Positions 10,188 through 62,225 of a DNA stretch of 64,000 bases are shown one piece after another; position 1 is the first letter of the stretch; every line of letters begins with the position of its first letter. The position numbers and the translations under genes were made by a program. This DNA comes from Chloroflexota bacterium (GTDB lineage Bacteria > Chloroflexota > Anaerolineae > B4-G1). Location: contig JAAEPW010000986.1 in assembly GCA_024232355.1 (NCBI GenBank), forward strand, positions 12,395-76,394. Direction: 5' to 3'. The notes below the pieces were generated by a model. The model was not told the DNA's origin. It did no database searches and saw only the letters and a program-made list of their open reading frames with translations.

Positions 10188-10196
10188 AGGTCACCT

Positions 10197-39911: not shown

Positions 39912-40863
39912 TCTAGCAAAACGTGCTTATATCGGCGATGGGAAGTGCCACTACGACCCTCTGCCAGGTGCCTGGTCAGAGTCAGAACCCTACATTGCTT
40001 CAAGTACGCTGGCAGAGGCAGTTAACGTTGCCCTGCACCTACGCCGCCCTCTATTAGTGGAGGGTGACCCTGGATGTGGGAAAACTCGTTTGGCCTACGC
40101 GACAGCCTACGAACTAGGCTATCCACTCAAAGCGTGTTACATCCGGTCCACCAGCCGTGCCCAGGACCTGCTCTATACTTACGATGCTGTGAAGCGATTG
40201 TATGATATTCAAGAGCGCAAAACCATTGATGATAAGAGACAACCTCCGTCGCGCAAGGAGTACGTCTCGCTGGGTAGATTGGGTGAGGCAATTCAACTTT
40301 CTCAGGAGGACGTTCCCTCGGTGGTCTTGATTGATGAGATTGACAAGGCGGATATAGACTTTCCCAACGACTTGCTCCTGGTCCTGGATCGCTTGCAGTT
40401 TGAGGTAGATGAGGTTGAAGGGGAATACAAGTTTGATGCACTCGAGGGAAAAAGCCGCGACGAGAGAAAAGACGTTCTGCCCTTGATCATTGTGACCAGC
40501 AACCGTGAGAAAGAATTGCCCAAGCCTTTCTTGCGGCGGTGTATCTTTTATTACATTGACTTCCCCGACTATGATACCCTGGTAAAAATTATGGAGAGTC
40601 ATTTTCAAAAGGGTATTACGCCTCTCTTTGAAGAGGCGATCAAACAGTTTTGGCGACTTCGGCAGCAAGAATTTCGTTGGCGCAAGATTCCCAGCACCAG
40701 CGAGTTATTGGATTGGGTACAGATTTTGGAACGAGATGAACAAGACAACAGGCTGCAAGTTCAAGACCTGACTACATCACCAATCAGCAATCTGCCATAT
40801 CTTGAAACTCTGGTCAAAACACAAGGCGATCTCGATGCCTTGAAAAAACTAAAGTCAGAATGA
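39904..40863 (+). CDS. MoxR-family AAA+ ATPase
   Basis: The 319-residue protein has Walker A 'LLVEGDPGCGKTRLAYA', Walker B 'SVVLIDEIDKADIDFPNDLL', sensor 1 'LIIVTSNREKELP' and the arginine-finger segment 'FLRRCIFYYIDFPD'. MoxR ATPases remodel partner proteins with a vWA domain, and that partner is encoded next, overlapping by 4 bp (ATGA). In conflict systems of this kind the pair gates activation of the effector. Confidence 0.92.
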   Translation: MSDLAKRAYIGDGKCHYDPLPGAWSESEPYIASSTLAEAVNVALHLRRPLLVEGDPGCGKTRLAYATAYELGYPLKACYIRSTSRAQDLLYTYDAVKRLYDIQERKTIDDKRQPPSRKEYVSLGRLGEAIQLSQEDVPSVVLIDEIDKADIDFPNDLLLVLDRLQFEVDEVEGEYKFDALEGKSRDERKDVLPLIIVTSNREKELPKPFLRRCIFYYIDFPDYDTLVKIMESHFQKGITPLFEEAIKQFWRLRQQEFRWRKIPSTSELLDWVQILERDEQDNRLQVQDLTTSPISNLPYLETLVKTQGDLDALKKLKSE

Positions 40864-45954: not shown

Positions 45955-46896
45955 TCAACGCGCAACGATAGACTCTACCGCTCGCGCCAAGTCTTGCTGG
46001 CCTGGTCGTGTGTAAATGCGGGTCGTGTCGAGGCGGCTGTGTCCCAAGAGGTCTGCCACCTGTTCCAGTCCAGTCTTGGAATTGACCAAGTTCTTGGCAA
46101 AAGAGTGACGCAGCACATGAGGTGTGAGATCCTCCAAGTTGGCATTGTTTCCCAGTTTTGTCACGATCCGTTGCATCATCCTTGTGCCAAGTCGTTTCCC
46201 TCGCCGATTGATAAAGAGCGCCGGTGAATTTGTCTCTGGCCGAACTTTGATCCAGTCTGACAGTGCTGCTCGCACTTTGGTGTTGAGTGGGACCGTGCGT
46301 TGTTTGTTCCCTTTGCCCATAACCGTCACCTTACTGGAACGTTCCCGCAGCAGAATGTGTTCCACGTTCAGCTTTCTAACCTCGTCCACGCGCAGGCCGG
46401 CATTCAGCATCAGATGGACCAGGGCCACATCTCTGCGGGCCCAGATCAACTCGGGTGGAGCGGGGCGCTCCTCCAGTTCTGCCAGACGAGCCTTGAGTTC
46501 GGCATATTCCAGCAAACGCTGAATGGTCCGGTTCAGAGCCGCTTGCTGCCGATTATCCAGCCACCGGGGTGGTTTGCGTTGTTCGTCCACAAGTTTGACG
46601 CCTTCAGTAGGATCGCCGGCGATGAGACCTGTAGAGCGGGCCCATGTCGCATAGGCACGCAAAGATGCGATGCGCCGGTTGATAGTAGCCGGTGCTAAAC
46701 CGCGGACTGCCTGCATCCACTGGCGGTATTCGCGCACGTCGGTAGGGGTGACCATTTCAGGTGTGAGGGGTACGCCGTTGGTTTGTGTGAACCACCGGGC
46801 GAAATGGGCCAGGTCAGCCGTGTAGGCACTGACGGTACGTGGGCTGCTATCCTGCTTTTCGAGCCAATCACGAAAATTTTGCAAAGTTGTCTCCAT
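45955..46896 (-). CDS. Tyrosine recombinase (XerC/D-like integrase)
   Basis: The 313-residue protein has a SAM-like N-terminal core-binding domain ('LQNFRDWLEKQDSSPRTVSA') and the catalytic domain: 'AGLRVDEVRKL' (first Arg), 'VMGKGNKQRTVPL' (Lys), 'HVLRHSFAKNL' (H-x-x-R), 'LLGHSRLDTTRIYT' (His and Tyr nucleophile). A GGAAGGAG site precedes the start. Next to the replication-relaxation gene it marks a mobilisable or integrated element. I could not identify attachment-site repeats. Confidence 0.9.
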   Translation of the reverse strand: METTLQNFRDWLEKQDSSPRTVSAYTADLAHFARWFTQTNGVPLTPEMVTPTDVREYRQWMQAVRGLAPATINRRIASLRAYATWARSTGLIAGDPTEGVKLVDEQRKPPRWLDNRQQAALNRTIQRLLEYAELKARLAELEERPAPPELIWARRDVALVHLMLNAGLRVDEVRKLNVEHILLRERSSKVTVMGKGNKQRTVPLNTKVRAALSDWIKVRPETNSPALFINRRGKRLGTRMMQRIVTKLGNNANLEDLTPHVLRHSFAKNLVNSKTGLEQVADLLGHSRLDTTRIYTRPGQQDLARAVESIVAR

Positions 46897-47163
46897 CTGT
46901 TACTCCTTCCGACTTATACGACGCGAAAATCGATAGATAAATGGGTCAAAAACAACGCTTACGAGTCATATACGCGATCAGCAGTGACAGCCAATATGCA
47001 TTATGTGAAGCCAATGCAAGGTAGATTGTCGCATAATACGCTGTCTGCAAATGACAGGGACTGACAGAGGCTGACAACCACGAGTTTGAGAAACTCCCTT
47101 CAATCGCGCAACTCTTTTTCCCTGAGGAGCTTTTGGGTATAACATAGTGATACTGTATTCCCT
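46897..47163. other. Gap between integrase and hypothetical gene
   Basis: About 270 bp without a convincing gene; candidate location of an attachment site or the integrase promoter. I found no clear direct repeat. Confidence 0.4.
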
Positions 47164-47841
47164 TCAGCTCTCCGGGATGACTTTGAATCCTCTGGGGCTG
47201 GTCCGTCTCACGCGGCGTAGATTGCCCCATTCCACTGCCATATTGCCATCGCGCCCCTTTAGGTCTAGGTCGAGGCGTTTGATGATCTTTGTGGCTGAAA
47301 CTGGATGTACCCCCAAGAAATGAGCGACATGTTGGCGGTACAGCAACAATCGGTCAGCTATATCAGGGCCCAAGGTATGTATAACCTTGCCTAGCCCAAC
47401 CCGATAGTGTCCGAAAGAATTTCTTGTGAATCGTAGGCCCTTTCCCCCCAAATTTTCACGTAGGGCAACAGTTGGGTTCAGGCCCAGGGCTTGGGCTACT
47501 TGGTGAAACGACACATATATGTGCAGCCGTGTGGCATAGGCCCAAAAACTTAGGAACGGGCAATTGGTCAATGCCTGAGCTAGTGCATACGGGTACCTGT
47601 CTGAGTCAGGTTTGATCATGTCTTGTCTCTGTGAGGATGCATATAATCCGCGCTCTGCGATTTGAGCAAACCACATGTCCAGATATCCAGCAGCTTCACC
47701 GTAGAGCGGCCAGGCTTGATCTATGTTTTTTTTGTTGAGCACGTATATACTGCGTGAACCATCTGGCAGCATGGAAAAGACAACAATGTATTTGTGCCCA
47801 CGCCGCACGTGGAAAAGGAACGTGTTTGCGTTATGCATCAC
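47164..47841 (-). CDS. Hypothetical protein next to replication-relaxation gene
   Basis: The 225-residue protein matches no family I recognise. It begins with a beta-rich stretch ('FLFHVRRGHKYIVVFSM', 'GSRSIYVLNKKN') and later has a possible helix-turn-helix ('IYVSFHQVAQALGLNPTVAL' and 'YRQHVAHFLGVHPVSATKII'). The composition is normal for a real gene and the orientation matches the two mobile-element genes around it. A DNA-binding role in element maintenance is inferred from the second HTH-like stretch. Confidence 0.55.
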   Translation of the reverse strand: MMHNANTFLFHVRRGHKYIVVFSMLPDGSRSIYVLNKKNIDQAWPLYGEAAGYLDMWFAQIAERGLYASSQRQDMIKPDSDRYPYALAQALTNCPFLSFWAYATRLHIYVSFHQVAQALGLNPTVALRENLGGKGLRFTRNSFGHYRVGLGKVIHTLGPDIADRLLLYRQHVAHFLGVHPVSATKIIKRLDLDLKGRDGNMAVEWGNLRRVRRTSPRGFKVIPES

Positions 47842-47965
47842 TACCTCTCAATTATTTGTTCGGAGAAATATTTTGCCATTGTCAGTACTGTTAGGGAACA
47901 AACCGTTTCTGCTCATGTGCTCGCAACTGAATACTGAGAACCCTTGTTCACATTCTTCTACTCGA

Positions 47966-48964
47966 TTATGGTTCTTTGTCCTCGGAGAACAAACAAACTT
48001 TATGGATACTCTTATCTTGATCCATTATTCGCCAATAACCTGATCCAGCTTGATCAAGGCGGGCAAAGAACCAGCGTATCGACTTCTCTTTGATTCGATC
48101 CTGTACCCTGTCCATCACCCGACACAATCTGGATTCCGAAATTTGTTGTCGTTGTTCCAGAGTAGCCTTACCCCGAGTAGCTACCCAGACCAGCACAACG
48201 ATGCCCGGAAACAAATGATATTTCGTTGTCCATGCATTGCTACGAAAGTACCACTCGTACTGACGAACCTTGGTGACATAGACGTTGAGTGTGTCTGTGC
48301 CGGTATCCATCTCTGCGAATATTGACCTCTCCCGTCCCGAGGTGATATGATCAAGTACTATCAGACCATCAGGCCGCATCTTTACCGAATGACCCTGATA
48401 CTCAAACTGCGCGTAGGCGCCTCGTTCTCCGTAAAAGCGCACCTGCCAGTCACCCAGAGCGCGTGCGGTTTGGGTTAGATCGACCAATGCCTCACCGAGT
48501 AAGGTGTTGTGAGCCATCAAAGTAGTAGTTCGTTTTTTGTACGCCTTTGCTCCATCTATATTTCGTTCTCCCAGCAGCATGATGCCCGCCCGGCCCAACA
48601 TGTAGACCAATTGAAGGCGTATACCATATCTACTGGGATCATGTCCTGGTGTCCGGTCCAGAATGTGCAATTCCCACAATCGTTTCAACCGTCGGCTGGC
48701 TCGCCGAGGTGGGTCCGTAGACTGGTAAAAAAACAATCGTGCCAACTGTTCTGTCGAGGCATAGCCAATCTCACCCAGGTACATTACAATGTTTCTGTCG
48801 CGATCTGTTAGAGGCAACGAGTGAAGATAAGTCAGCGTGATTTTTGCCGGTTCTCGTTCCATTTTGTATCGCAGCATTCTCCACTCTGGTTCGCTGGGAG
48901 CAGATAGCGTCACACCACCAGGACGGTCGACCAGTGTTTTTTTGCTGAATCTATTCTTGCTCAT
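47966..48964 (-). CDS. Replication-relaxation family protein
   Basis: I start at the ATG at 48964, with GAGGAG 8 bp upstream; a GTG lies nine bases earlier. The ~332-residue protein has an N-terminal winged helix ('LTDRDRNIVMYLGEIGYAST', 'ASRRLKRLWELHILDR') and a nuclease-like alpha/beta core ('MRPDGLIVLDHITSG', 'IFAEMDTGTDTLN'), the Replic_Relax layout. These proteins are carried by plasmids and conjugative or mobilisable elements and probably act at the origin of transfer or replication. Confidence 0.8.
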   Translation of the reverse strand: MSKNRFSKKTLVDRPGGVTLSAPSEPEWRMLRYKMEREPAKITLTYLHSLPLTDRDRNIVMYLGEIGYASTEQLARLFFYQSTDPPRRASRRLKRLWELHILDRTPGHDPSRYGIRLQLVYMLGRAGIMLLGERNIDGAKAYKKRTTTLMAHNTLLGEALVDLTQTARALGDWQVRFYGERGAYAQFEYQGHSVKMRPDGLIVLDHITSGRERSIFAEMDTGTDTLNVYVTKVRQYEWYFRSNAWTTKYHLFPGIVVLVWVATRGKATLEQRQQISESRLCRVMDRVQDRIKEKSIRWFFARLDQAGSGYWRIMDQDKSIHKVCLFSEDKEP

Positions 48965-48979
48965 TGTTGGCACTCCTCA

Positions 48980-49757: not shown

Positions 49758-49874
49758 TCGCGGCCGCCCTACGGGCGGATAACTGATGGGGGATTCTCCC
49801 CCTTGCCCCCCGCTTGCAGTAGTCAGTATTCCAGAAACCAGCATCCAGCAATCAGCATCCAGAAATAGAGCCAG
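49758..49874 (-). repeat. Conserved flank downstream of variable repeat 1, with two hairpins
   Basis: About 117 bp shared with the flanks of the other two DGR targets. Hairpin A is CCGCCC-TAC-GGGCGG (49764-49778). Hairpin B is GGGGGA-TTC-TCCCCC (49788-49802). Degenerate 'cagcatccagcaatcagc' repeats lie between hairpin B and the VR. Hairpins just beyond the VR are known to promote DGR retrohoming. Confidence 0.75.
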
Positions 49875-52443
49875 GGGAAACTACTCGAAAACCGATATCG
49901 TCGTTACAGCCGTCGGGCACACCCCTGAATCGGTAGGCGCAGCGCGCGAGCCTCCGATAGTCGAAGAACGAGCCCCCGCGAACTGCGCGGTAGACCTCAC
50001 CCGCGTCGTACCACGAGTTGGTCCATTCCCAGACGTTGCCACTCGTATCCTTCACACCAGCCTCACTATCTCCACTGGAGAATTGGCCGACGGCGGTCGT
50101 CGAAGCTGCCTCACGTGAACTGCTCTCGAGCCACTTTGACCAATCAAGATCATCTTGTTCTCCCCAAAACTCGGCACAGTTCAACAGATTTCTATCAAAA
50201 GTATCTCCCCAGGGATACTCGCGCCCGTCAGTGTGGCGGGCGGCCCGCTCCCACTCTTGTTCTGTGGGCAAGCGCACCGGATGACCCAGATCCTGCGCCA
50301 GCCATTCACAATAGGCTTGGGCCTCGAACCAACTGACGCCCACCACCGGCGCCAGGGGGTTGTTCCAATTGACGTCGCGCCAGTAGAACGGCTCCCCGCG
50401 CTTTTCCGGTGGGCGGCGCTCCAGGTGACGCTTTTCATAGTCCTCCCGCGCTTTGCTGTCGTAAGTGCCGTCGCGCCAGGCCCAGCCGTCGTCGCTCCAG
50501 AACTGGGGCTGCTCGTAGCCCCCGGCCTCTATAAAGCGGTGGTATTGCAGGTTGGTGACCGGGTACTTGGCTATGGCAAAGGGCTGCGCGATGACGATCT
50601 CTTGCTTATCGTCGCCGTACAGGAACGGCCCGGCCGGGATGTCGACGAACGCATCGAGGTCGTCCGGGGCCCAACCGGCGCGGCCTAGGCTAAAGCCGGC
50701 GTCGCGCTGGACGGCGGGAGGCAGGGAGCGGTCTCGCGCCGCGTCCAGGAGCGCGTCGGTGACCTCTCGCGCCACGACGCGGCCCAGGCCCAGGTCTCCC
50801 GCGTCTTCCATGCACGCTCCGGCGAGCAGGACGTTCTTGCAGGCGTCGTCCCCATCGCACGCCGTCTCCAGCATCGCCCGCACCACCTGCCCGGCGGCGC
50901 GCGGCTGTTTGTGCAGCAGCCCCCAGATGCCCACCGCCAGCAGGATCGTCTCGCGCCAGGCGGGGTCGGTGAGGTGCTGCCGGATGACGGCAATGCTCTC
51001 GCCGAGGTCCAACTGTCCCAGCTGCACCACCCCGTAGGCAGCCAGCATCTCTTCGAACGTCAGGTGGATAAAGCCGTACTGCCCCCGGCCGCGCTCCAGG
51101 ACCAGGTTCGAGTAGCGGCGCACGCTGTTCAAAAACTCGCGCGCCCTCTCGGCAGCGGGACCGCGCGGCAGCTCCCACTCTTCGCCCATAAAGTAGTCGG
51201 TCAGCCAGCCCAGCAGCGCCTGTTCTGATACCAGCCCCGCTGTCGGGTTTTCCTCGCGCAGCCAGAGGGCCAGCGGTCCCAGCACCATCAATATCTGCAA
51301 ATAGTCCATCTCTGGCCCCACCTGCCGCTTGTCCAGGGCGCGGGCCTTGCTCCACGCGGTGATGAGCGTCTTGAGGTAGAGTTCGTACAGTTCGACGCGG
51401 CGGTTAGGGAGCGAGACGCCCTGCCGCTTGATGAGGGCCAGGATGGTGAGCAGGAGCGGGTTGCTGGCCAAGCGCGCCACGCCGGGGTTGGCGTCGATGG
51501 CTTGCAGCAGGCTTTTACGTTCGGCCTCGGCGGCGGCGCGGGCCTCGGGGGTGTCACCCAGGGTGCCCGTCTCAAAGGCCGCGCACCAGCGGACGGCAAA
51601 GCGCTCGATGGCGTTCCGGTCGAAATCGAGCAGCGTGTACAAGGCCCACTCTTTAGGGGCCAGCGGCGACTCGCGGTAGCCGACCACGCGACTGGTGACC
51701 ACCACCCGGTTGCCGCGCCCGGACACGTCGCGGGCAAAGGCCTCTACCTTGGCCGCCAGGTGAGAACGTCCGCGCTGCACCTCGTCCAGACCGTCGAGCA
51801 GGATCACGGCCTGGCCCTGGGCGATGGCGCTGTCGAATAGGGGAGCCAGCCCTGCCAATCCCTGGGCCAGCCCGGCAAAGTACTTGGGCAGATACTGCTG
51901 CAAGCTGATATCGGCACGCGAGAGGGCACCGGCATAAGCGTTGAGGGGCACCAGAACCGGCAGCGGGGCCTTTGACTCTGCCGCCAAGCGCAGCGCCAGG
52001 TACTTGAGCAGGGTCGTTTTCCCAGAACCAGGGTCACCGATGACGGCGACACGCTCTTTCTCTGCCAGGGCCTCTTCGATGTGTACGGGCGCGGCGCTGC
52101 CCTTTTCCAGCGCTTGTTCCGGGATCGCCTCTCCTCTCAGAAAGCGACCGGCCAGACGACGGTCCCAGGTCTCGCCGGCGGGCATCTCGGGCCGGGCGAC
52201 CAGGGGCACGTAGACGTCTTCCAGCAGCAATTCGCGGGAAAAGGTCTCCAGTTGGGGAATGCCCTTGAAATCGAGGGCGCGGTAGGTGCGCCGGAGATGG
52301 TCGACGTAGCTGGCGCGCAGCTGCGTCAAGTCTGCCGGCGGCTCGTAGGCCGGCATTTTGAGGACATAGGTGATGTTGACTTGGTCGCGCATGATGACGT
52401 CGCGCTGGGCGTTGACGTCGTTGACGTTCATACCTTCGTTCAT
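49852..52443 (-). CDS. DGR target 1: NACHT NTPase with FGE-type variable domain
   Basis: From the ATG at 52443 (GGAG site 6 bp upstream; an in-frame ATG at 52470 lacks one) the protein has 863 residues. Near the N-terminus is 'NAQRDVIMRDQVNITYV', the motif shared with the other targets. The NACHT domain has 'GDPGSGKTTLLKYLALRLA' near 140 and 'VILLDGLDEV' near 214. The last ~270 residues are a formylglycine-generating-enzyme/C-type-lectin-like fold ('VDIPAGPFLYGDD', 'VVGVSWFEAQAYCEWLAQDL', 'DTSGNVWEWTNSWYD'). The final segment, from 'RGGSFFDYRRLARCAYRFRG' on, is the variable repeat. A sensor that binds a variable ligand and oligomerises is the likely role. Confidence 0.92.
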   Translation of the reverse strand: MNEGMNVNDVNAQRDVIMRDQVNITYVLKMPAYEPPADLTQLRASYVDHLRRTYRALDFKGIPQLETFSRELLLEDVYVPLVARPEMPAGETWDRRLAGRFLRGEAIPEQALEKGSAAPVHIEEALAEKERVAVIGDPGSGKTTLLKYLALRLAAESKAPLPVLVPLNAYAGALSRADISLQQYLPKYFAGLAQGLAGLAPLFDSAIAQGQAVILLDGLDEVQRGRSHLAAKVEAFARDVSGRGNRVVVTSRVVGYRESPLAPKEWALYTLLDFDRNAIERFAVRWCAAFETGTLGDTPEARAAAEAERKSLLQAIDANPGVARLASNPLLLTILALIKRQGVSLPNRRVELYELYLKTLITAWSKARALDKRQVGPEMDYLQILMVLGPLALWLREENPTAGLVSEQALLGWLTDYFMGEEWELPRGPAAERAREFLNSVRRYSNLVLERGRGQYGFIHLTFEEMLAAYGVVQLGQLDLGESIAVIRQHLTDPAWRETILLAVGIWGLLHKQPRAAGQVVRAMLETACDGDDACKNVLLAGACMEDAGDLGLGRVVAREVTDALLDAARDRSLPPAVQRDAGFSLGRAGWAPDDLDAFVDIPAGPFLYGDDKQEIVIAQPFAIAKYPVTNLQYHRFIEAGGYEQPQFWSDDGWAWRDGTYDSKAREDYEKRHLERRPPEKRGEPFYWRDVNWNNPLAPVVGVSWFEAQAYCEWLAQDLGHPVRLPTEQEWERAARHTDGREYPWGDTFDRNLLNCAEFWGEQDDLDWSKWLESSSREAASTTAVGQFSSGDSEAGVKDTSGNVWEWTNSWYDAGEVYRAVRGGSFFDYRRLARCAYRFRGVPDGCNDDIGFRVVSPGSISGC
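49875..49988 (-). repeat. DGR variable repeat 1 (VR1)
   Basis: A 114-bp segment aligned without gaps to the template repeat. It has 18 differences, every one at a template adenine (coding strand). Relative to template Asn codons the residues become F, D, Y, L, Y, F, G, G, N, D, D. Confidence 0.95.
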
Positions 52444-52679
52444 TGATTGCTCCAGGGCCCGCGCCAACATTCGCTTGAACGCGTTCGCCTCGAACGCGCA
52501 GTTACCAGAGGGCGCGGGCAGTTTTTATATTTGGCTGGCCGCCGCTGCAGTGGCGATGGCCTCAGCCGGGGACGGACAACGCTGGCTCTGAACGGACGCG
52601 CCTCCGGGCGCGTCTTGGCTCCGTCCCGCGTCCGACAGATTCGGACTACGGGATTTGCCGGCCGCCGGTCGAGCGTCAT
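52444..52679. other. GC-rich spacer between target 1 and the template repeat
   Basis: No gene. It holds short GC-rich inverted repeats (for example GACGCGCCTCCGGGCGCGTC near 52600), which may protect the end of the template RNA. Confidence 0.45.
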
Positions 52680-52793
52680 GGGAAACTACTCGAAAACCGA
52701 TATTGTTGTTATAGTTGTCGGGTACATTCCTGTTTCGGTTGGCGCAGCGCGCGTTCCTTCGATTGTTGTTGAACGAGCCCCCGCGAACTGCGC
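52680..52793 (-). repeat. DGR template repeat (TR)
   Basis: This 114-bp non-coding copy is homologous to the C-terminal coding ends of the three targets. Read on the minus strand it contains 11 AAC/AAT codons exactly at the positions where the targets differ ('GGSFNNNRRNARCANRNRN' in translation), the usual DGR design that avoids stop codons. It lies 29 bp after the avd stop, on the same strand as avd and the RT. It has 33 adenines on the coding strand; 18, 12 and 14 of them are changed in VR1, VR2 and VR3. Confidence 0.95.
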
Positions 52794-52822
52794 CGCCGTC
52801 CGGCCCCTGTGAATAGTTTACT

Positions 52823-53155
52823 CTACTTGATCGTTTTCTGCCAGCCGCCCAGCAAGCGCCCCATCTCGGCCAGCATGCGGGCCGCGTGCTGGTATTGACC
52901 GGCGCTGACCAGGCCCATATCGCGGGAGAGCCGCAGGTGCGTGCGCAGTTTATCCAGTTCGGCGTCGGCAGCGACCAGGGTGTTTCGTGGTTCGCGGTGG
53001 TGGGCGGCCTCGATGAGCAGTCCCTGAAAGCTCAACGCTTCTTGCTGGAGCGCCGTCGCCATGACAAAGCGCTGTTGGCGCGGAAACTTGATCGTCATTG
53101 GGATGAGCCAGGCGACAAAGTCGTAGGTTTTGCTAAAGATGGGCGATTGTTTCAC
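52823..53155 (-). CDS. avd: Avd-like DGR accessory protein (four-helix bundle)
   Basis: The gene uses a GTG start at 53155 with a strong GGAGG site 5 bp upstream (53161-53165). The 110-residue product is all-helical and basic ('SKTYDFVAWLIPMTIKFPRQ', 'MATALQQEALSFQGLLIEAA', 'LDKLRTHLRLSRDMGLVSAG', 'ARMLAEMGRLLGGWQKTIK'). This is the four-helix bundle of Avd/S23-type proteins, which form a pentamer that binds the DGR reverse transcriptase and template RNA. It lies between the RT gene and the TR. A longer frame reaching to 53713 is open only because it overlaps the RT gene. Confidence 0.88.
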   Translation of the reverse strand: MKQSPIFSKTYDFVAWLIPMTIKFPRQQRFVMATALQQEALSFQGLLIEAAHHREPRNTLVAADAELDKLRTHLRLSRDMGLVSAGQYQHAARMLAEMGRLLGGWQKTIK

Positions 53156-53235
53156 ATGTACCTCCGTGGTTGTCTTGATGAACCAGGCGCGATTTGGAAA
53201 TTGCGGCTGCTGGTCCCGACATATACGGGGATTTG

Positions 53236-54360
53236 TCAATCCCTTCCGAGCGGTGAGCTTGGCGGCTGCGACGGGACGCTGGGCAGGACGACGCTGGACA
53301 GGATCGATTCCCGCAGGCCCCACGTGTCGCCGTGGGAGGCGTGGGCGATCCAACTCTGCACCGAGGCGTTCATCTGCTCCCACGAGATCTGGCCGCCGGC
53401 GTATTCTTGCACCAAACGGGCAAAACGACGCTGGAACGCTACGCCGTTGCGCCGTTTGAGCCGCCGGTGTTCGGGATAGACGCGCCAGCCCAGGAAAGGT
53501 ATGCCCGTATGCACCGGAAAGACCACCGACTCGCGCTCGTGCAGGCGCGCGCGCAGCGTGGCCGCGAACCGGATGACGTCCCGCTTCCAGCGGTGGAGGC
53601 TGGGCTTGTCGTCGGCAAAGAGTAAAAAGTCGTCCACGTAGCGCACATAGCCGCCGCACTTGAGCTCGCGCTTGATGAATTGATCCAGCGGGTTGAGATA
53701 GACGTTGGCCCAAAACTGGGACGTCAGGTTGCCGATGGGGAGGCCGCGTGGCCGCATCGCGGCAAAGAGACCTTGCCCTGAGCCTGTCGAAGGGTCGTCC
53801 TGGGGAAAGTAGTGGGGGGATGAACTACTGGCGTGGACGTCTGTGCCGCTGTCGATGATCTGGTCAACCAACCACATGGTGCATGGGTCGGCGATGACGC
53901 GGGCCAGTTGGGCGCGCAGGATGGCGTGGTCGATGGTGGGAAAAAAGTGGACCAGGTCGCATTTGAGCACATAGCGGTACTTGCGCGCAAAGTGCTGGCA
54001 GCGGTCGAGAGCTTTGTGGGTTCCCTTGCCCTTGCGGCAAGCGTAGGAATCGTGGATGAAACGGCGCTCGAATATGGGCTCAATGTTGCGGACGAGGGCA
54101 TGATGAACGACGCGGTCGCGAAAGGGCGCTGCCGAGATCAGGCGCGGCTTGGGGTCCTGGATGTGAAAGTTATAGTACGAGCCAGGGGTGTAGGTCTGGG
54201 ATTCGAGTTCCTCTTGCAGGGCGAGCAGGTTGGCCTCCAGGTCGTATTCAAAGGCGGCTACGTCCGGGCGGCTGCGCTTGCCGCGGGCGGCTTTTTTGAA
54301 CGCCTGGTAGAGGTTTTCAAAGTTGGTGACCAGTATGTAGAGATTTTTATGTGTTTTCAT
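53236..54360 (-). CDS. DGR reverse transcriptase
   Basis: The 374-residue RT has 'RLISAAPFRDRVVHHALV', motif A 'LKCDLVHFFPTIDHAIL', the DGR-type motif 'GLPIGNLTSQFWANVYL', catalytic 'YVRYVDDFLLFADD' and the thumb-side 'FLGWRVYPEHRRL'. The next genes on the strand are avd, TR and a VR-bearing target, which makes this a DGR rather than a retron or group II intron RT. An unusual 'DPSTGSGQG' stretch (about 53,765-53,800) sits before motif B. It matches a dispersed repeat and is probably an in-frame insertion. Homing copies template cDNA with adenine-directed errors into the targets. Confidence 0.95.
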   Translation of the reverse strand: MKTHKNLYILVTNFENLYQAFKKAARGKRSRPDVAAFEYDLEANLLALQEELESQTYTPGSYYNFHIQDPKPRLISAAPFRDRVVHHALVRNIEPIFERRFIHDSYACRKGKGTHKALDRCQHFARKYRYVLKCDLVHFFPTIDHAILRAQLARVIADPCTMWLVDQIIDSGTDVHASSSSPHYFPQDDPSTGSGQGLFAAMRPRGLPIGNLTSQFWANVYLNPLDQFIKRELKCGGYVRYVDDFLLFADDKPSLHRWKRDVIRFAATLRARLHERESVVFPVHTGIPFLGWRVYPEHRRLKRRNGVAFQRRFARLVQEYAGGQISWEQMNASVQSWIAHASHGDTWGLRESILSSVVLPSVPSQPPSSPLGRD

Positions 54361-54374
54361 AGAGGTTCCTTCGA

Positions 54375-54745
54375 TTCCCTCAGGACAGGCTGCTTTGTTC
54401 AGAATGACGCGCTTTTATCATTTCGAATACTCATTATTCGTCATTCCGAACGGAGTGAGGAATCTCTCCCCGATGCAACCAGAGATTCTTCGCTTCGCTC
54501 AGAATGACGGCACTTTACACAGACTGATGTGCTTTTGTCATTCCGAATACCCATTCGCCATTCCGAGCAGAGCGAGGAATCTTTCCCCCAATGCAACCAG
54601 AGATTCTTCGCTTTGCTCAGAATGACGGTGCTTTTGTCATTCCGAACGCTCATTCGTCATTCCGAGCAGAGCGAGGAATCTCTCTCCCGTTGCAATTAGA
54701 GATTCTTCGCTTCGCTCAGAATGACGCGCTTTGCTCAGAATGACG
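54375..54745. repeat. Cluster of REP-like inverted repeats
   Basis: Several tandem copies of a ~70-bp unit whose halves are near-palindromic ('cattccgaacggagtgagga' and 'tcttcgcttcgctcagaatg'). They can form long hairpins and read as 'HSERSEES' when translated. The same unit occurs at 55060-55340 and 59060-59345. Unit lengths vary and no unique spacers are present, so this is not a CRISPR array. Confidence 0.8.
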
Positions 54746-54757
54746 GTAAAGTACAAC

Positions 54758-55057
54758 CTAGTCAAACCAATCCTCACTCAGGTCATCCCAAAGAGGATTG
54801 TCATCCTCAATCAAATCAATTTTTTTGTCACGCCGCCACCCTTTGAGTTCTTTCTCCCTGGCAATCGCGTCCCGGATATCGTCAAACGTCTCATAGTACG
54901 CCAGTCGAGTGATGTTGTATTTGGCGGCGAATTTGGAGCCAGTTTTCTGTTTGTGTTCCCACATACGGCGTTCGAGATTGTTGGTGACACCGGTGTAGAG
55001 CGTTTTGGACCTGTTCGTGGCAATATAGACATAGCTGCCTTTTTTCTGCATATTCAT
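54758..55057 (-). CDS. GIY-YIG domain nuclease, small YhbQ-like
   Basis: The 99-residue protein has 'SYVYIATNRSKTLYTGVTNN' (the GIY...YIG strands as VYI and YTG), 'LERRMWEHKQKTGSKFAAKY' (catalytic Arg and His) and 'AREKELKGWRRDKKIDLI' (catalytic Glu). Such one-domain proteins are common in environmental bacteria, often near repeats. It lies between two REP clusters, upstream of the RT on the same strand. A role in making the nick for DGR homing is possible but unproven. Confidence 0.85.
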   Translation of the reverse strand: MNMQKKGSYVYIATNRSKTLYTGVTNNLERRMWEHKQKTGSKFAAKYNITRLAYYETFDDIRDAIAREKELKGWRRDKKIDLIEDDNPLWDDLSEDWFD

Positions 55058-55059
55058 CT

Positions 55060-55340
55060 CGTGTGGGATTCTTTCCTTCGATTCCCTCAGGACAGGCTGC
55101 TTCGCTCAGAATGACGGTGCTTTGCTCAGAATCACGCGCTTTGGTTATTCCGAACGCTCATTCGTCATTCCGAGCAGAGCGAGGAATTTCTCCTCCGATG
55201 CAATCAAAGGTTCTTCGTTGTGCTCAGAATGACGCGCTTTTGTCATTTCAAATACTCGTTATTCGTCATTCCGAACGGAGTGAGGAATCTCTACCCCACT
55301 GCAAACAGAGATTCTTCGCTTCGCTCAGAATGACGGCGGT
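55060..55340. repeat. REP-like repeat cluster
   Basis: Copies of the 54375-54745 unit, with the variant 'ttccctcaggacaggctgct' at the left end. Confidence 0.75.
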
Positions 55341-55349
55341 CTGGCGGCG

Positions 55350-55490
55350 GTTGGCGAAACTGCAAAAATCGCCGGCCGCGACGCGCTTCGCGCGATAACT
55401 GATGGGGGATTCTCCCCCTTGCCCCCCGCTTGCAGTAGTCAGTATTCCAGAAATCAGCATCCAGCAATCAGCATTCAGAAATAGAGCCAG
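55350..55490 (-). repeat. Conserved flank downstream of variable repeat 2, with two hairpins
   Basis: Same layout as 49758-49874. Hairpin A has different bases but the same form, CGCGC-TTC-GCGCG (55382-55394). Hairpin B is identical (55404-55418). Confidence 0.75.
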
Positions 55491-58254
55491 GGGAAACTAC
55501 TCGAAAACCGATATCGTAGTTATAGAAGTCGGGTACATACCTGTTTCGGACGGCGCAGCGCGCGTACCACCGATAGCTGTTGAACGAGCCCCCGCGCACT
55601 GCGCGAAACCGCTCGCCAAACTCGTCCCTCGGCTCACCGCCGGGGTACATTTGATACCAGTCCCCCGTCCACTCCCACACATTGCCGGCGGCGTCGAACA
55701 GGCCGTGGGGCGAGACGCCGTCGGGGTAAAGACCTACCGGCGTGGTGGTATAGATGTGGCCCTCCACCGTGTTGCAGCGCGCCGGGTCGAAGGTTTCCCC
55801 CCACGGATATTTGCGCCCATCGCCATCACGGGCAGCCTTTTCCCACTCGGACTCGGCGGGCAGGCGGAACTCGCGCGCGGTGATGGCAGAGAGCCAGGCG
55901 CAATACGCCGGGGCCTCGTACCAGTTGACGCCCACCACCGGGCGGGCCGGGCTGCTCAGATCACGGTCATCCCAGTAGGCGGGCCGGTCGAAAGGCCGCT
56001 CAAAGATCTGTTGAGCACGTTCTTGGGCCTCCTCGTCAGAAAGCGCCACTATCTCCTGCCAAAAGCGCAACTCCTGGGGACGCCAACTGCGTTGCTTGGC
56101 AAGATCGTCCATATCTCGTTTTTGCAGCCACTCCCGGTAGTCCAGCCAGTCCGCCATCGCGCCCGCGTGGGCATCGGGGCCACCGGCCTTCCACAAAAGC
56201 CCCTCCTCACTCCACCAGCGCTCGTCCCGGTAGCCGCCGGCTTCGATAAAGAGGGCGTACTCGGCATTGGTGACCGGGTAGCGGCCAATGCAGTACTCGG
56301 GCAGCGTCACCGTGCGCTCGTCAGTGTATTCGCTAGAGTAGGCATCGGGGTCATCGCGGTTGCTGCCCCGGATAAAGGGGCCGGCGGGCACCGCTTGCAA
56401 CGGAGGCAGGATGGCCCAGACGGTGTGGCCCTCGAACTCAAAGGGTTGGGGGCGCAGATCGGGATGACCGGCCTCGCCCAGGGCCAGCCCAGCGGCGATG
56501 CGGGCGCGCAGGTGGGCGCGCTCGCCGCGCTGGCGGGCCAGCAGGTCGCGGCGGATTTCCCCGGCCAGGGTCTCCAGGTCGGGGCGGACGGCGCCGGCCT
56601 CGGCCAGGCAGCGACCGGCCAGAGGCAGGTTATGCCGGCGCACGGCGGCGATAAAGCGGGCAGCGTCTTTGCCCGCCAGCCCGGCCGTCATGATGACAGT
56701 CTCTTCCCAGCCAGTGACGGGCGGGGGCGGGACGCGCTCGCCGGGGCGCAGCTTTTTGGGCAGCCCCTGCCGCAGCGCGAACTGCCACCGTTGCCACGGC
56801 ACGCGCCAGTGGCGGGCCAGCCGCTGCCCGGCGCGAAAGCGGTAGAGCAGCTCGCGGGCGGCAAAGTACTCTTGCAGCAGGTGGTGGTAAAAGGCATAGA
56901 TGGCCGTCTGCCCCTCGTCCGCGCTCTTTTCCAACACGGTAGCGTCGAGCGCCAGATCGAGCACCTCGTCCAACGCCAGGCGGACTTGCCCGCCGTCGCC
57001 CAACTTGATCTTGGCGGCACCCTCGCGGGTGAGGCTGGTGCCTTCGCCCCGGGCCTGCATGGCAAAAGCAAAGCGGCCCAGGGCCGCCATCGCGGCCTGG
57101 AGGGTGGAGCGGGGGTCGGCAGTGAGGGCGCCGGGCTGGCGGCCCTCGCGCAGCTCGCGGTCTATGAGGCGGTCGGCCAGGTCGTCCATCAACTGGGCGC
57201 GGCTGCCCGTAAAGGCGCGCCCTTCCTCGCAGCGGTCGGCCAGCAGGGAGAGGGTAAAGGGGTTGCGGGCCAGCCGCTCGTCCTCGCCAGCATGGAGCCA
57301 TTTTTCAAAGTCGCGCCACAGCCCGGCGGCGCGCTCCGGCCCAAAGCGCAGCTCAAAGTACTGCTCCATGCGGCCCCGGTCGAGGCTCTGGACGTGTATC
57401 TCTGGCAGGCGCAGGTCGGTGACGTAATCGGCGACGCGGCAGGTAAAGATGGCCCAGTTGCCCGGGGGCAGGTCGTGGTTGGCCCAGTGGGCCCAGCGCT
57501 CGATGCGCGCCGCGCGGCCGGACAGGGGCATCTGGTTGACGCCGTCGAGCAAAAAGCAGACCTGGCCTCCCGCCACCGCCTCGCCGTAGGTCTCTTTGAG
57601 GCCGGTGGTCCGCCACTCGTTGTGGAGAAAGTCGGAGGGGTGGAGGTCGGGGGCGGTGAATTTGAACAGGTCGGCGCGAAAGGGCAGCTTGCCGCGCAAG
57701 GGATCGCGCAGCCGCTCGCGGGCCAGGTCGAGCGCCAGGCGGTGGAGGGTGGTGGTCTTGCCAGCGCCCGGCTCGCCCAGGATGACGAGGCGGGTCTTGG
57801 CGAAACCGGTGAGGGCCTGGCGCACGTCGTCGATCCGGACGCCGGCGGAACTGAGGGCCTGGTCGCCGCGGTCGCTGAGGCGCAGGGGGGTGTCGAGCAG
57901 CCGTCCGGCCAAGGGCAGATAGTCGCGGTCCCAGCGGGCATAGGTCTGGCTGAGGATAAAGCGGGCCAGGTAGATCTCTTCGCGGCGGCGGGGGGCGGCC
58001 TCACGCTGGATCGCGCCCAGCGCGGTCAGGTCGGCGGGCGCAAAGCGGACTGGGGCGTCGGAGCCGGGGTCGACGACGATGATGGGGCGGTTGGCGTCTC
58101 GCTCGACCCGGACGGCGGCCTGGGGCTGGCGCAGCAGGGCCACGATCTGGTCGAGCAGGGTTTCGACGCGGGTCAGGTCGGCGCGGTTGATCTGGTCGCC
58201 CATGATGACGTCGCGGGCGGCGCGGATGTCGCCGGTTTTGGGTTTGTGTGTCAT
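55468..58254 (-). CDS. DGR target 2: NACHT NTPase with FGE-type variable domain
   Basis: I start at the ATG at 58254, giving 928 residues; a GTG at 58353 would add a tail absent from the paralogues. The shared motif appears as 'DIRAARDVIMGDQIN' at about 8-22, followed by a short helix. NACHT signatures are 'LGEPGAGKTTTLHRL' near 160 and 'VCFLLDGVNQMP'. The FGE-like domain spans about 620-928 ('VPAGPFIRGSN', 'IGRYPVTNAEYALFIEAGGY', 'VVGVNWYEAPAYCAWLSA', 'DAAGNVWEWTGDWYQ') and ends in the variable segment 'RGGSFNSYRWYARCAVRNRY'. The neighbouring upstream gene carries the same motif. Confidence 0.92.
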   Translation of the reverse strand: MTHKPKTGDIRAARDVIMGDQINRADLTRVETLLDQIVALLRQPQAAVRVERDANRPIIVVDPGSDAPVRFAPADLTALGAIQREAAPRRREEIYLARFILSQTYARWDRDYLPLAGRLLDTPLRLSDRGDQALSSAGVRIDDVRQALTGFAKTRLVILGEPGAGKTTTLHRLALDLARERLRDPLRGKLPFRADLFKFTAPDLHPSDFLHNEWRTTGLKETYGEAVAGGQVCFLLDGVNQMPLSGRAARIERWAHWANHDLPPGNWAIFTCRVADYVTDLRLPEIHVQSLDRGRMEQYFELRFGPERAAGLWRDFEKWLHAGEDERLARNPFTLSLLADRCEEGRAFTGSRAQLMDDLADRLIDRELREGRQPGALTADPRSTLQAAMAALGRFAFAMQARGEGTSLTREGAAKIKLGDGGQVRLALDEVLDLALDATVLEKSADEGQTAIYAFYHHLLQEYFAARELLYRFRAGQRLARHWRVPWQRWQFALRQGLPKKLRPGERVPPPPVTGWEETVIMTAGLAGKDAARFIAAVRRHNLPLAGRCLAEAGAVRPDLETLAGEIRRDLLARQRGERAHLRARIAAGLALGEAGHPDLRPQPFEFEGHTVWAILPPLQAVPAGPFIRGSNRDDPDAYSSEYTDERTVTLPEYCIGRYPVTNAEYALFIEAGGYRDERWWSEEGLLWKAGGPDAHAGAMADWLDYREWLQKRDMDDLAKQRSWRPQELRFWQEIVALSDEEAQERAQQIFERPFDRPAYWDDRDLSSPARPVVGVNWYEAPAYCAWLSAITAREFRLPAESEWEKAARDGDGRKYPWGETFDPARCNTVEGHIYTTTPVGLYPDGVSPHGLFDAAGNVWEWTGDWYQMYPGGEPRDEFGERFRAVRGGSFNSYRWYARCAVRNRYVPDFYNYDIGFRVVSPGSISEC
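55491..55604 (-). repeat. DGR variable repeat 2 (VR2)
   Basis: 114 bp without gaps against the TR: 12 substitutions at template adenines and one other mismatch in the outermost bases at the 5' coding edge. Confidence 0.95.
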
Positions 58255-58447
58255 TAGTTTATCTCTGTTCAGATATTGGTCAAGGATGGCGGTTAGGCGT
58301 TGTTCAGAAACAACGTCACCGTCCCACAGTTGGTCCGGCCGGGCGTAATGCACCCGATCTACGGAGCAATGCCCCGTGAACGGTGCTGACGATGATTGTT
58401 TGTGCTAGATTTGCCGCCCTCGGGACGAGGGCTGAAAGCCTGACGGG

Positions 58448-58900
58448 TTAGAACAACTGGCTGGCCATCTGGATGAGGGTGGCCAGGACAGCGCCCAGGC
58501 CGACTGCGGCTTGGACACTGCCAGAGATACCCTCCAAGATTCCTTTGGCCCCGGTCAGGGTGGCGGTGATGCGGGCACCCAGGGGTTCTGGTTTCTGGGC
58601 TTCTTTGACCGCTCGCTGGACGTTTTCTTCGACTACTTGTATCTGCTCAACCTGCGCCGGCGGGAGCGACTCTTGTTGTTTGAGCTTGGCGAGTTCGGTT
58701 TGCAGGGTTTGCAGTTGGGTGACAAACTCGGGCCGCGTGGCGATCTGGGCCACTTGCTGCCGAAAATCATTGTATTGGTCACCCATGATGACGTCGCGCC
58801 CGGCGTGGATGCCGCCAGCGACGGCGATGCCATCTTTGGCCTCGGCTGTCTGCTGGGGTTGGTCGGGTTGCTGCTTTTTGGTGGTGCGTTTTTTGGTCAT
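58448..58900 (-). CDS. Small coiled-coil protein with shared RDVIMGDQ motif and hydrophobic C-terminus
   Basis: The 150-residue protein starts at 58900 with AGGAG 8 bp upstream. After a basic Gln/Lys-rich head it has 'AVAGGIHAGRDVIMGDQYN', nearly the motif of the three DGR targets. A coiled coil follows ('QLQTLQTELAKLKQQESL', 'VEQIQVVEENVQRAVKEAQK'), then a C-terminal hydrophobic stretch ('GSVQAAVGLGAVLATLIQMA') long enough to enter a membrane. It lies between targets 2 and 3 on the same strand. By analogy with effector/sensor pairs sharing an N-terminal signalling motif, it may be the membrane-acting effector recruited by the sensors. That is inference. Confidence 0.75.
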   Translation of the reverse strand: MTKKRTTKKQQPDQPQQTAEAKDGIAVAGGIHAGRDVIMGDQYNDFRQQVAQIATRPEFVTQLQTLQTELAKLKQQESLPPAQVEQIQVVEENVQRAVKEAQKPEPLGARITATLTGAKGILEGISGSVQAAVGLGAVLATLIQMASQLF

Positions 58901-59059
58901 TTGATCGTCTCCTATAGTTTTAGTTGGTCCTAATGCTAATACGGTTCAGTTAGTATAGTCTAGCCTCTTGTAGGCGTTCCTAGCGGGCACAAGGCCTTGT
59001 ACTACTCTTTAACTGCACCGTATTGGTCCTAACGCGATATGGCAATCGCGGCTACGACT

Positions 59060-59345
59060 CGCTCGTCATTCCGAACGAAGTGAGGAATCTCTACCCCAAT
59101 GCAATCAGAGATTCTTCGCTTTGCTCAGAATGACGATATCCTCTGTAGAGATTCTTTCTTTCGATTCTCTCAGGACATGTTGCTTTGCTCAGAATGATGC
59201 GCTTTTGTCATTTCGATTACTCATTCGTCATTCCGAACAGAGTGAGGAATCTCTACCCCAATGCAATCAGAGATTCTTCGCTTTGCTCAGAATGACGATA
59301 TCTTCGGTAGAGATTCTTTCCTTCGATTCTCTCAGGACATGCTGC
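59060..59345. repeat. REP-like repeat cluster
   Basis: Further copies of the 54375-54745 unit, lying between the motif protein and target 3. Confidence 0.75.
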
Positions 59346-59351
59346 TTTATA

Positions 59352-59488
59352 ACGGCGTGCAAAAAATCGCCGGCCGCGACGCGCTTCGCGCGATAACTGA
59401 TGGGGGATTCTCCCCCTTACCCCCCGCTTGCAGTAGTCAGTATTCCAGAAGTCAGCATCCAGCAATCAGCATTCAGAAATAGAGCCAG
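59352..59488 (-). repeat. Conserved flank downstream of variable repeat 3, with two hairpins
   Basis: Hairpin A CGCGC-TTC-GCGCG (59380-59392) and hairpin B GGGGGA-TTC-TCCCCC (59402-59416), as at the other two targets. Confidence 0.75.
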
Positions 59489-62225
59489 GGGAAACTACTC
59501 GAAAACCGAGAGCGTTGTGACAGTAGTCGGGGACATCCCTGTCACGGTAGGCGCAGCGCGCGAACCTTCGATCGTTGTTGAACGAGCCCCCGCGAACTGC
59601 ACGCTCGCCCTCGGCGTCCACATCCTCACACTCATCCGGCTGGTACGGGTACGGGCGGAACAGGCTCGCCGTCCAGTTCCACACGTTGCCCGTTTGGTCC
59701 TCGGCCCCAAAAGGCCTCACACCGCCGGCCGCGGCGTAGGCGCCCGCGGGCGAGGGTTTGAGCACACGGCCCTCGATGGTGTTGGCCCGCGTACCGTCCC
59801 ACTCGTCGCCCCAAGAATAGCACCACCCGGCAGGACCGCGAGCGGCGGCCTCCCACTCGACCTCGGTAGGCAGGCGGTAGGTCTGCCCGCCGACGGCGGA
59901 GAGCCAGGCGCAATAAGCGCGAGCCTCGAACCATGTTATCCCGACCACAGGTTGGGAGGGGTTGTTATAGTCGGCGTCGTCCCAATAGTGGGGCTGTTCG
60001 CGGGATTTGTCGCCAAGCTGGCTCGCTAACTCTGACTTGAGATCATCCTCACTCAACCCGGCGATGTAATCCAAGCTTTTCAATTGGTCAGGAGAAAAAT
60101 TACCCTGGCGTTCCAATTGCTCTCGCCAATTGGGGGTAGACTGGGTGAATCGCCATGCATTCATCCAGGCCGTGAGCGGCCCGCCCATCACGTCCTCACC
60201 CTGTAACCACCGATGGGCCAGATCGGTGCCCCACCAGCGCTCATCCTGATAGCCGCCTGCGGTGATGAAACAAGCGTACTCGGCGTTGGTCACGGGCCAC
60301 TTGCCGATGCGGAAGGGGGGCAGTTCGACGGTGTGTGCGGGTTTTTCCCGATCATAAGCGTCAGGATCATTGTCCGCGCTGCCAATGGGGTACGTACCGC
60401 CGGGAACCTCTACCATCTTTGGTATGATAACCTTTACCCCGTCAATTTCTTGTGGCCGGAAGCGGGGGTCGCCCACGCGGCCCAGAGTGAAACCGGCCTG
60501 CAAGCGGGCGCGCAGGTGGACGGCGGGGTCGTAAAGGTCGGCCAGCAGGTCGGCCTGCACGGCGCGGAGGACGGGTTCGGGTTGGGGGATGCCGGCCTCG
60601 ACCAGGCAGCGCCCAGCCAGGACGGGGTTGTGGGGACGCACGGCCTCGATGAGACGGGCGGGATCGGTGCTCAGGCCGCAGGCGAGAATGGTGGTCACTT
60701 CCCAGCCGGTGGGGGACGGCTCGGGCAGGGGGTCCCACTCGCCGACGGTGGCGGGGGGCATATCGCGCTCCAGGCGCACGCAGCGCCACAACTCGCACAG
60801 ATCGTCATCGTGGTCAAAGCGGCGCAGCAGTTCGCGGGCGGCAAAGTACTCTTGCAGCAGGTGGTGGTAAAAGCGCACGTCGGGCTTGATGCCGGGGTCG
60901 AGGATCGTCCCCGCGCGGGCAAAGCGGAACAGGTCGGCAGGGTTGACGTCCACCGTCTCGCCTTCAAATTCGACGGTCTGCGGCAGGGCGTCCCGGGCTG
61001 TCTGGAGGGGGACGGTCAAGCTTTCGCCTTGCTCTTGCATCGTGTAGGCCAGTTGCTCTAGCGCCCGGGACTGGACATCGCGATGCAGCCAGCGGGGGTG
61101 GGCCAGCCGCTCCTCACGGCGGAACAGTTCGTCGGCGAACCACTCGAGCAGGCGTCCGCGGTTGGCCATCGCCTGGTGGTTGGAGCGGTAGGCAAAGACG
61201 AGCAAGCTGAGGTTAAAGGGGTTGCGGGCCATCTCGCGCAGGTGGGTGCTGGGGTCATTGAGCAGTTCTTGCAAGCCCTCAGCGTCGTTGCAGCGCAGGT
61301 ATTCGGTGATGCGGGCGTCGTCCAGCGGCTCTACGCGCACGCGCGGCAGGTCGAGTTGGCGGTCATAGTCCCGCTCGCGCCCGGAAAAGACGATCTGGTT
61401 GGCCTGGCAATAGTCGGTGCTAAAAAGCCGCCAGGCCTTGAGGCGCTGGTCGCGCACGTCGCGGGGCAGTTCGTTGATGCCATCGGCCAGGATGAGTATG
61501 CGCCCGGCGACCAGGGCATCGTCGAAACTGGTGCTGGCGCGCTGTTCCCACTCGGCGCGCAAAAAGCCGGCCGGTGTGCGCTCCCCTTGCTGGCTGAGGC
61601 GGACAAAGAGGGGCACACGGTCCGGCCCGCCAGACAGGATGTGGCGGGCGGCCTCGAAAGCGATCTTTTGCAGGGTGGTGGTCTTTCCCGCACCCGGCTC
61701 GCCCAGGATGACAAAGGCGGGGTGGTTGGCCAGGGCCTCGGTGATGTCCTCCAGGGGCACGGTGGTCACGCGGGCCTCGGCTCCGCTGCCGGGTGGGGGA
61801 ACGCGGAACTCGCTAAAGGCGACGGGCATGTCCAGCCCCTCGACGGCGCACTGGACGTCCATCCGCGCGGCCAGGGGGATGAACTTTGTGGCCCAGACCT
61901 GGTACTCGCGCTGCACGGTGAGGGAGAGCAGGTAGGAGCGTTGGTCGCGGCGGCGGGCCAGTTGTTGGGCCGCGCCGGGGCGAAAGACGAGGGTTTCACC
62001 TTTGACCTCGGCGCGGATGGTGTTGCCGTCGGGGACAAAGGACGCGCCGGCCTGGAGAAAGGCCAGCACTTTGTCGATGAGGCGCTCGACGTCATCGACA
62101 GAGTAGCCGTAGGTGATGTTCTGGTCGCGCCCGATAAAGTCGGCGGCGCAGCTAAGGTCTCCGGCAATGGCGATGCCGTCGCGGGCGGAGGCATGGCGGT
62201 TGGAGGCAGGGTCTTGAGATGGCAT
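59466..62225 (-). CDS. DGR target 3: NACHT NTPase with FGE-type variable domain
   Basis: The 919-residue protein starts at 62225 with GGAG 8 bp upstream. Its motif is a divergent version, 'DLSCAADFIGRDQNITYGYS', followed by a short helix ('VDDVERLIDKVLAFLQAG'). NACHT signatures are 'ILGEPGAGKTTTLQKIAFEA' near 172 and 'ILILADGINELP'. The FGE-like part from about 600 has 'VPGGTYPIGSADNDPDAYD', 'IGKWPVTNAEYACFITAGGY', 'VVGITWFEARAYCAWLSAVG' and 'DQTGNVWNWTASLF'. It ends in the variable segment 'RGGSFNNDRRFARCAYRDRD'. Targets 2 and 3 are closer to each other than to target 1. The leader contains a strong hairpin (62251-62284). Confidence 0.92.
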   Translation of the reverse strand: MPSQDPASNRHASARDGIAIAGDLSCAADFIGRDQNITYGYSVDDVERLIDKVLAFLQAGASFVPDGNTIRAEVKGETLVFRPGAAQQLARRRDQRSYLLSLTVQREYQVWATKFIPLAARMDVQCAVEGLDMPVAFSEFRVPPPGSGAEARVTTVPLEDITEALANHPAFVILGEPGAGKTTTLQKIAFEAARHILSGGPDRVPLFVRLSQQGERTPAGFLRAEWEQRASTSFDDALVAGRILILADGINELPRDVRDQRLKAWRLFSTDYCQANQIVFSGRERDYDRQLDLPRVRVEPLDDARITEYLRCNDAEGLQELLNDPSTHLREMARNPFNLSLLVFAYRSNHQAMANRGRLLEWFADELFRREERLAHPRWLHRDVQSRALEQLAYTMQEQGESLTVPLQTARDALPQTVEFEGETVDVNPADLFRFARAGTILDPGIKPDVRFYHHLLQEYFAARELLRRFDHDDDLCELWRCVRLERDMPPATVGEWDPLPEPSPTGWEVTTILACGLSTDPARLIEAVRPHNPVLAGRCLVEAGIPQPEPVLRAVQADLLADLYDPAVHLRARLQAGFTLGRVGDPRFRPQEIDGVKVIIPKMVEVPGGTYPIGSADNDPDAYDREKPAHTVELPPFRIGKWPVTNAEYACFITAGGYQDERWWGTDLAHRWLQGEDVMGGPLTAWMNAWRFTQSTPNWREQLERQGNFSPDQLKSLDYIAGLSEDDLKSELASQLGDKSREQPHYWDDADYNNPSQPVVGITWFEARAYCAWLSAVGGQTYRLPTEVEWEAAARGPAGWCYSWGDEWDGTRANTIEGRVLKPSPAGAYAAAGGVRPFGAEDQTGNVWNWTASLFRPYPYQPDECEDVDAEGERAVRGGSFNNDRRFARCAYRDRDVPDYCHNALGFRVVSPGSISEC
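59489..59602 (-). repeat. DGR variable repeat 3 (VR3)
   Basis: Gapless alignment to the TR: 14 substitutions, all at template adenines, plus one mismatch in the last two bases at the 5' coding edge. Confidence 0.95.

Follow-up and report, generated by a model that had tools for sequence, protein, structure and literature searches.

The locus examined here raises the question of what three receptor genes that share one DGR are for, and through which protein they would pass on a signal. We analysed a stretch of 64,000 nt of a Chloroflexota bacterium (contig JAAEPW010000986.1), called the window below; coordinates are positions within it, and the DGR cassette with all its features lies on the minus strand. 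One complete DGR, with an RT, an Avd and a single template, serves three NACHT-FGE genes: all parts were located and all three targets end in variable repeats (VRs), as a reading of the sequence alone (the sequence-only reading) had claimed. The reverse transcriptase (RT; 53236..54360, 374 aa) matched PF00078 and contains YVDD together with IGNLTSQ, a motif that is a hallmark of DGRs. Its best PDB match was 8ub7, titled a DGR RT (E 6e-52), followed by a group II RT (E 2e-19), so the match and the motif both identify an RT of the DGR type; this closest solved relative also bears on whether the RT might fall outside the DGR clade, an outcome that the sequence-only reading had named as refuting it. 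The Avd accessory protein (52823..53155; 110 aa with an assumed GTG start) scored 98.9 bits against NCBIfam NF033474 (cutoff 80), as expected in a DGR, and matched PF22296 (bAvd) and Bbp7 (PDB 4dwl, E 0.004). The template repeat (TR; 52675..52793) carries the IMH* CATGAC at 52675-52680; 11 of its 39 codons are AAY, and the majority of the changed codons fall among these.

The three VRs were compared with the TR over 119 nt holding 35 template adenines (117 nt for VR3). VR1 (49870..49988, 119 nt) displayed 20 mismatches and VR3 (59484..59602) 16, all at template A, and VR2 (55486..55604) displayed 15, of which 14 were at template A. In total, 50 of 51 mismatches fell at template A, IMH pairs included, as is characteristic of TR/VR pairs in a DGR (hypergeometric p for A-limitation 1e-13, 5e-8 and 2e-10 for VR1, VR2 and VR3). 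Each VR owes two of its mismatches at A to the fixed change between IMH* and IMH (CATGAC in the TR, CCTGGC in the VRs, at 49870-49875, 55486-55491 and 59484-59489), identical across the VRs; once this pair is set aside from 20, 14 and 16, the previously reported counts of 18, 12 and 14 adenine mismatches are exact. The one other mismatch in VR2 is a silent T>G at its 5' edge, where two non-A mismatches had been reported, and the second, a C>T in VR3, lies just beyond the compared 117-nt segment. Most changed codons were non-synonymous (13/15, 11/13 and 12/14 for VR1, VR2 and VR3, IMH pair included).

A hairpin, GGGGGA-GAA-TCCCCC, follows VR1 (49788..49802, 68 nt downstream of IMH1), VR2 (55404..55418) and VR3 (59402..59416). 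These 6-bp stems were seen by eye, and a scan of the window for stems of at least 7 bp returned none; in a second genome (locus L035), the same scan located a perfect stem of 11 bp behind each of the three VRs. The hairpins lie 60-70 nt downstream of each VR in both loci, and CATGAC was found in 2/2 TRs and CCTGGC in 6/6 VRs of the two. Interspersed imperfect repeats occupy the gaps adjoining VRs at 54396-55400 and 59000-59360 of the window, and a GIY-YIG gene (54758-55057) lies within the first of these gaps.

The sequence-only reading had expected adenine-limited variation in related genomes as well, and this was observed. The three VRs of L035 differed from their own TR at 19, 18 and 17 positions, of which 18, 18 and 15 (51/54) were at A. 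Across 50 DGR loci (the window and 49 others) with 51 FGE targets, in which the repeat was picked by E-value and not by A content, 46 targets had a repeat of at least 60 nt outside any target; 729 of the 781 mismatches were at template A (A content 26%), nine ran in the reverse direction, and at least 80% of the mismatches were at A in 44 of these 46 targets. Two DGR targets, at 10169-11767 in L135 and 7208-8722 in L138, combine TIR and FGE domains and gave no NACHT match.

All three targets carry the Pfam families NACHT (PF05729) and FGE (PF03781), with the VR at the gene end. Target 1 (49852..52470, 872 aa) scored 35.8 bits for NACHT and 168 bits for FGE, both above the cut-off, and target 3 (59466..62225, 919 aa) scored 46 and 178 bits. 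For target 2 (55468..58254, 928 aa), the predicted model displayed NLR and FGE folds; the coordinates of the sequence-only reading were right apart from the start of this gene, which is better placed at the ATG at 58254, as in the database's own gene model, than at the alternative GTG at 58353. The VRs lie within the FGE domain, which matched structures of the C-type-lectin type, in agreement with the proposal that the variable residues of these NACHT NTPases sit in a lectin-like FGE fold. Each target thus joins a NACHT NTPase to a C-terminal sensor-type domain, the combination that marks STAND/NLR proteins, and the receptor tips rewritten by the DGR are predicted to be sensors. A solved variable protein from Treponema denticola (PDB 2y3c, 278 residues) matched target 2 over its FGE part alone, with no NACHT part aligned. 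We take this chain to be the DGR target TvpA, which fits a 2011 paper cited in PMC7159879.

The three-receptor DGR cassette is real and recurs in a second genome. L035 has the order of the window (target 3, small gene, target 2, RT, Avd, TR, target 1), with identities to the window of 63% for target 3, 35% for the small gene, 57% for target 2, 68% for the RT and 67% for target 1. The full order was seen in these two loci only, and partial sets were found in L001, L002, L031, L032, L033 and L034, several of them on short contigs. Among 396 genomes of the class of the Anaerolineae MAG that holds L001, RT matches at E 1e-60 or better occurred in 81, several with three to five copies, so DGRs look common in this class. 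Target 2 had matches in 49 of the 396 genomes (E 1e-40), and the profile of the small protein in 10 (E 0.001), five of them strong.

The surroundings of the cassette are as follows. A likely vWA-MoxR conflict system lies beside the DGR at 32089-45447, with genes for a kinase-FHA protein, a SIR2-caspase protein with EAD2, a second EAD2 protein, an AAA protein taken as MoxR-like, VWA_CoxE and an NB-ARC/TPR-like protein. PADLOC identified defence-type genes at 1-13500 and 21073-24303 (TmtA, UvrD/GajB-like, HerA, DpdA with a DpdC-like part and a ThsA-like SIR2 protein). A tyrosine recombinase and a Replic_Relax protein are encoded at 45955-48973, on the left side of the cassette. The GC content in 2-kb windows is 0.55-0.69 from 50 to 62 kb and 0.50-0.53 just outside, as if the segment had been acquired.

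The small gene between targets 3 and 2 (58448..58900) encodes a protein of 150 aa, and an N-terminal motif, xRDVIxGDQ, is common to this protein and to targets 1 and 2, target 3 being marginal. In the small protein, the motif (GIAVAGGIHAGRDVIMGDQYN, 58769..58831) is conserved in the family alignments. An HMM of the motif was built from the small-protein family and set against 1150 shuffles, the highest of which scored 6.7 bits; it gave 18.8 bits for target 1 (NVNDVNAQRDVIMRDQVN, 52375..52428) and 32.4 bits for target 2 (GDIRAARDVIMGDQIN, 58186..58233), and it found nothing at the N-terminus of target 3 (-1.6 bits). In profile comparisons of segments picked by pattern, the target 2 family reached 99%, and the divergent motif of target 3 (GIAIAGDLSCAADFIGRDQNI, 62115..62177) matched marginally (13.69 against 13.61 for the best of 60 shuffles), its best local partner still being the small protein. 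Among 115 NACHT-FGE relatives with a Walker A, the N-termini of 47 scored above all 1150 shuffles; 15 others carry a fused domain where the motif would be (trypsin in nine, DUF4062 in three, Mrr in two and CHAT in one; 4 of the 15 rechecked), and the HMM scored above the shuffles in 0 of these 15. A pattern search recovered the motif in only 18 of 54 receptor rows.

We also compared each receptor N-terminus with the ORFs of its own locus, for 51 receptors and 61 scanned loci. Nine loci hold the small-protein module, eight of them with a total of 14 receptors, and the module was the best-matching ORF for 10 of these 14 N-termini: targets 1, 2 and 3 of the window, targets 1 and 3 of L001, target 3 of L033, target 2 of L034, targets 1 and 2 of L035 and the target-3-like receptor of L072. 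For the remaining four it ranked second (L031, and target 3 of L035, tied), sixth (L032) and eighth (the other receptor of L072). In the window, where the small protein was the best of 39 ORFs for all three targets, the per-ORF p was 0.0065, 0.0004 and 0.0005 for targets 1, 2 and 3; the match of target 1, the weakest, fails correction for 39 ORFs when taken alone. The same test recovered an EAD1-NACHT-FGE/EAD1-trypsin pair (L145) and a receptor/caspase pair (L153). When receptors were matched against 10 small proteins, the own partner ranked 3.6 on average (16 rows, one duplicated) and was not consistently the best. In L072 (6154-9878), a receptor and a zinc-ribbon partner share another motif, in tandem (GGGTFIGRDQ / GGGAFVGRDQ), a pattern that would fit a joint change of motif and partner.

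In its predicted model, the small protein has 38 disordered residues followed by a four-helix bundle with pLDDT mostly >90, and the motif region has pLDDT <50 both here and in target 2. Its family comprises 52 members including the window copy, all with the motif by pattern (52/52) and 40 of 52 with a hydrophobic 19-mer of at least 1.6. No match to Pfam, NCBIfam or PADLOC was found for the small protein at E 0.001. A profile search (72 proteins) revealed fusions of the module of motif and bundle to three kinds of domain: LmuA-like in P0173 (PADLOC E 3e-10, without a Pfam match), caspase in P0208 (22.1 bits against a cut-off of 21.4) and EAD1 in P0207 (36.8 bits). Because of these fusions, the module appears to act like a tail or adaptor that effectors acquire. 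Because trypsin, CHAT, Mrr and DUF4062 domains replace the motif in receptor relatives, and because the module is fused to LmuA-like, caspase and EAD1 domains, the motif most likely recruits one shared signalling partner for all three sensors. We infer from these sequence relationships that the stand-alone small protein of the window is that common partner. The sequence-only reading, that the trio and its candidate effector look like an anticipatory immune receptor array, is supported in part: a single DGR serves three NLR-like targets with shared flanks, a candidate partner gene lies among them, and L035 repeats the array. The immune and anticipatory role is a predicted one, and the gene called an effector is better termed a putative receiver or adaptor module.

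We propose, with a probability of roughly 0.55, that the DGR has varied the FGE domain of three NACHT receptors, almost only at template adenines, and that the N-terminal motif, which two of them clearly share with the 150-aa neighbour, recruits this protein to signal for all three in what is predicted to be a cell-suicide or defence response. A ligand of foreign or non-kin origin would bind the FGE tip, oligomerisation of the NACHT domain would follow, and the clustered N-terminal motifs of the receptors could nucleate the small protein. The latter might act through its helical module, either directly, by means of its hydrophobic C-terminal helix, or through recruitment of an enzyme like those fused in relatives. 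An antiviral role is predicted for the receptors and the small protein. We are more doubtful of a further step, that the three hypermutating NLRs feed into one short motif, which would nucleate a polymer and so switch a single small protein, as a prion-like signalosome whose far-end enzyme is swapped freely between genomes.

A possible, though clearly less probable, alternative is that signalling runs through the NACHT oligomer of the receptors themselves or through some other effector encoded in the island, the small protein being a regulator, an inhibitor or a bystander with an N-terminal motif common in Chloroflexi. The motif type is indeed common among the listed NACHT-FGE proteins, the small protein matches no entry of the three databases at the threshold given above, and for 7 of the 18 receptor rows with the motif the examined stretch holds no partner (one of them, L071, is probably a chance pattern match). 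Among the 11 best target-2-like genes, six have the module within the examined stretch (G119, G184:C251, G002:C285, G193, G001 and G237) and five have no partner nearby: G184:C149 lacks the motif, and its contig ends 0.25 kb past the gene; G247 has a motif of the target 3 type; G137 has a fused DUF4062; G276 is on a 3.5-kb contig; and G171 (L073) has the motif, along with a target-3 relative that also bears it and an RT of 70% identity. However, the partner adjoins a receptor in the window, L001, L002, L031, L032, L033, L034, L035 and L072, its module is fused to LmuA-like, caspase and EAD1 domains in relatives, and effectors take the place of the motif in 15 of the 115 relatives of the receptors.

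The array might instead serve kin or self/non-self recognition between the cells of one filament or aggregate and not phage defence, an alternative that passages of Doré 2024 (PMC10907252) propose for such DGR systems; we consider it unlikely here, as the window is rich in defence-type genes, which favours defence without excluding kin recognition. Still less probable is that the DGR is a fossil, whose VRs were diversified in the past and which is now inactive or unselected. The template was not found for the VRs of some loci (L001 and L073), whereas in the window the RT, the Avd and the three targets are full-length ORFs and the TR is present, and L035 retains the gene order, its receptors and RT being 57-68% identical.

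Hypermutating immune receptors have a bacterial parallel in NLRs diversified by a DGR. The recurring cassette of three receptors, one DGR and one motif-sharing partner is compact enough for sensing, diversification and signalling to be tested one by one. The signalosome reading, if true, would mean many evolvable sensors with one common trigger, and programmed hypermutation wired to prion-like signalling.

Several known systems resemble parts of this cassette. In the passages of Kaur 2021 (PMC8195603) and 2020 (PMC7159879) on EADs, one copy of an adaptor lies at the receptor N-terminus and others on neighbouring effectors, and the FGS domain is associated with DGRs; the EAD1 pair of L145 is of this NTPase-FGS-EAD kind. 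An adaptor common to receptor and neighbour is also present in the window, by HMM for targets 1 and 2 and by the in-locus test for all three, but it consists of a short motif with predicted disorder, neither the three targets nor the small protein matched a Pfam EAD, and the partner has no recognised effector domain. In BASS/BELL systems, as passages of PMC7889193 and PMC8086366 describe them, a short motif at the NLR N-terminus recurs on the product of the neighbouring gene, which has a small helical domain together with a hydrophobic helix. The window is similar in its motif at the NLR N-terminus, its adjacent small protein with a predicted helical bundle and the disorder of the motif in monomer models; unlike the BELL-domain proteins in those passages, which carry the motif C-terminally, the small protein carries it N-terminally and so departs from the BASS/BELL arrangement. 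The likeness is one of predicted architecture, and these passages mention no DGR. PMC12261475 describes a motif of fungi under the provisional name GDQN, and among open-access papers we found no title naming the motif or small protein reported here.

The reading of DGR-hypermutated NACHT-FGE proteins as 'antigen sensors' is already published and is not new. Passages of Doré 2024 (PMC10907252) propose DGR-diversified NACHT/lectin antigen sensors as anticipatory immunity, and passages of Kaur 2021 (PMC8195603) propose NTPase-FGS-DGR systems; the sequence-only reading was right that DGR targets with conflict-type NTPase domains are known in multicellular bacteria. According to the passages of PMC10907252 on clade 5, its DGRs have as targets NTPases of the NACHT or nSTAND1 type that carry a lectin-type (also FGE) domain at the C-terminus, clade 5D commonly has two targets per DGR, filamentous Chloroflexi are among the hosts, and many N-terminal extensions of the targets are without characterised domains. 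The shared motif and its partner offer a candidate answer to the role of such N-termini. The receptors of the window are like these sensors in being DGR-served NACHT NTPases with a C-terminal lectin-type or FGE domain, and differ from those described in these passages in having three targets per DGR, an order repeated in a second genome, and a shared N-terminal motif with a partner.
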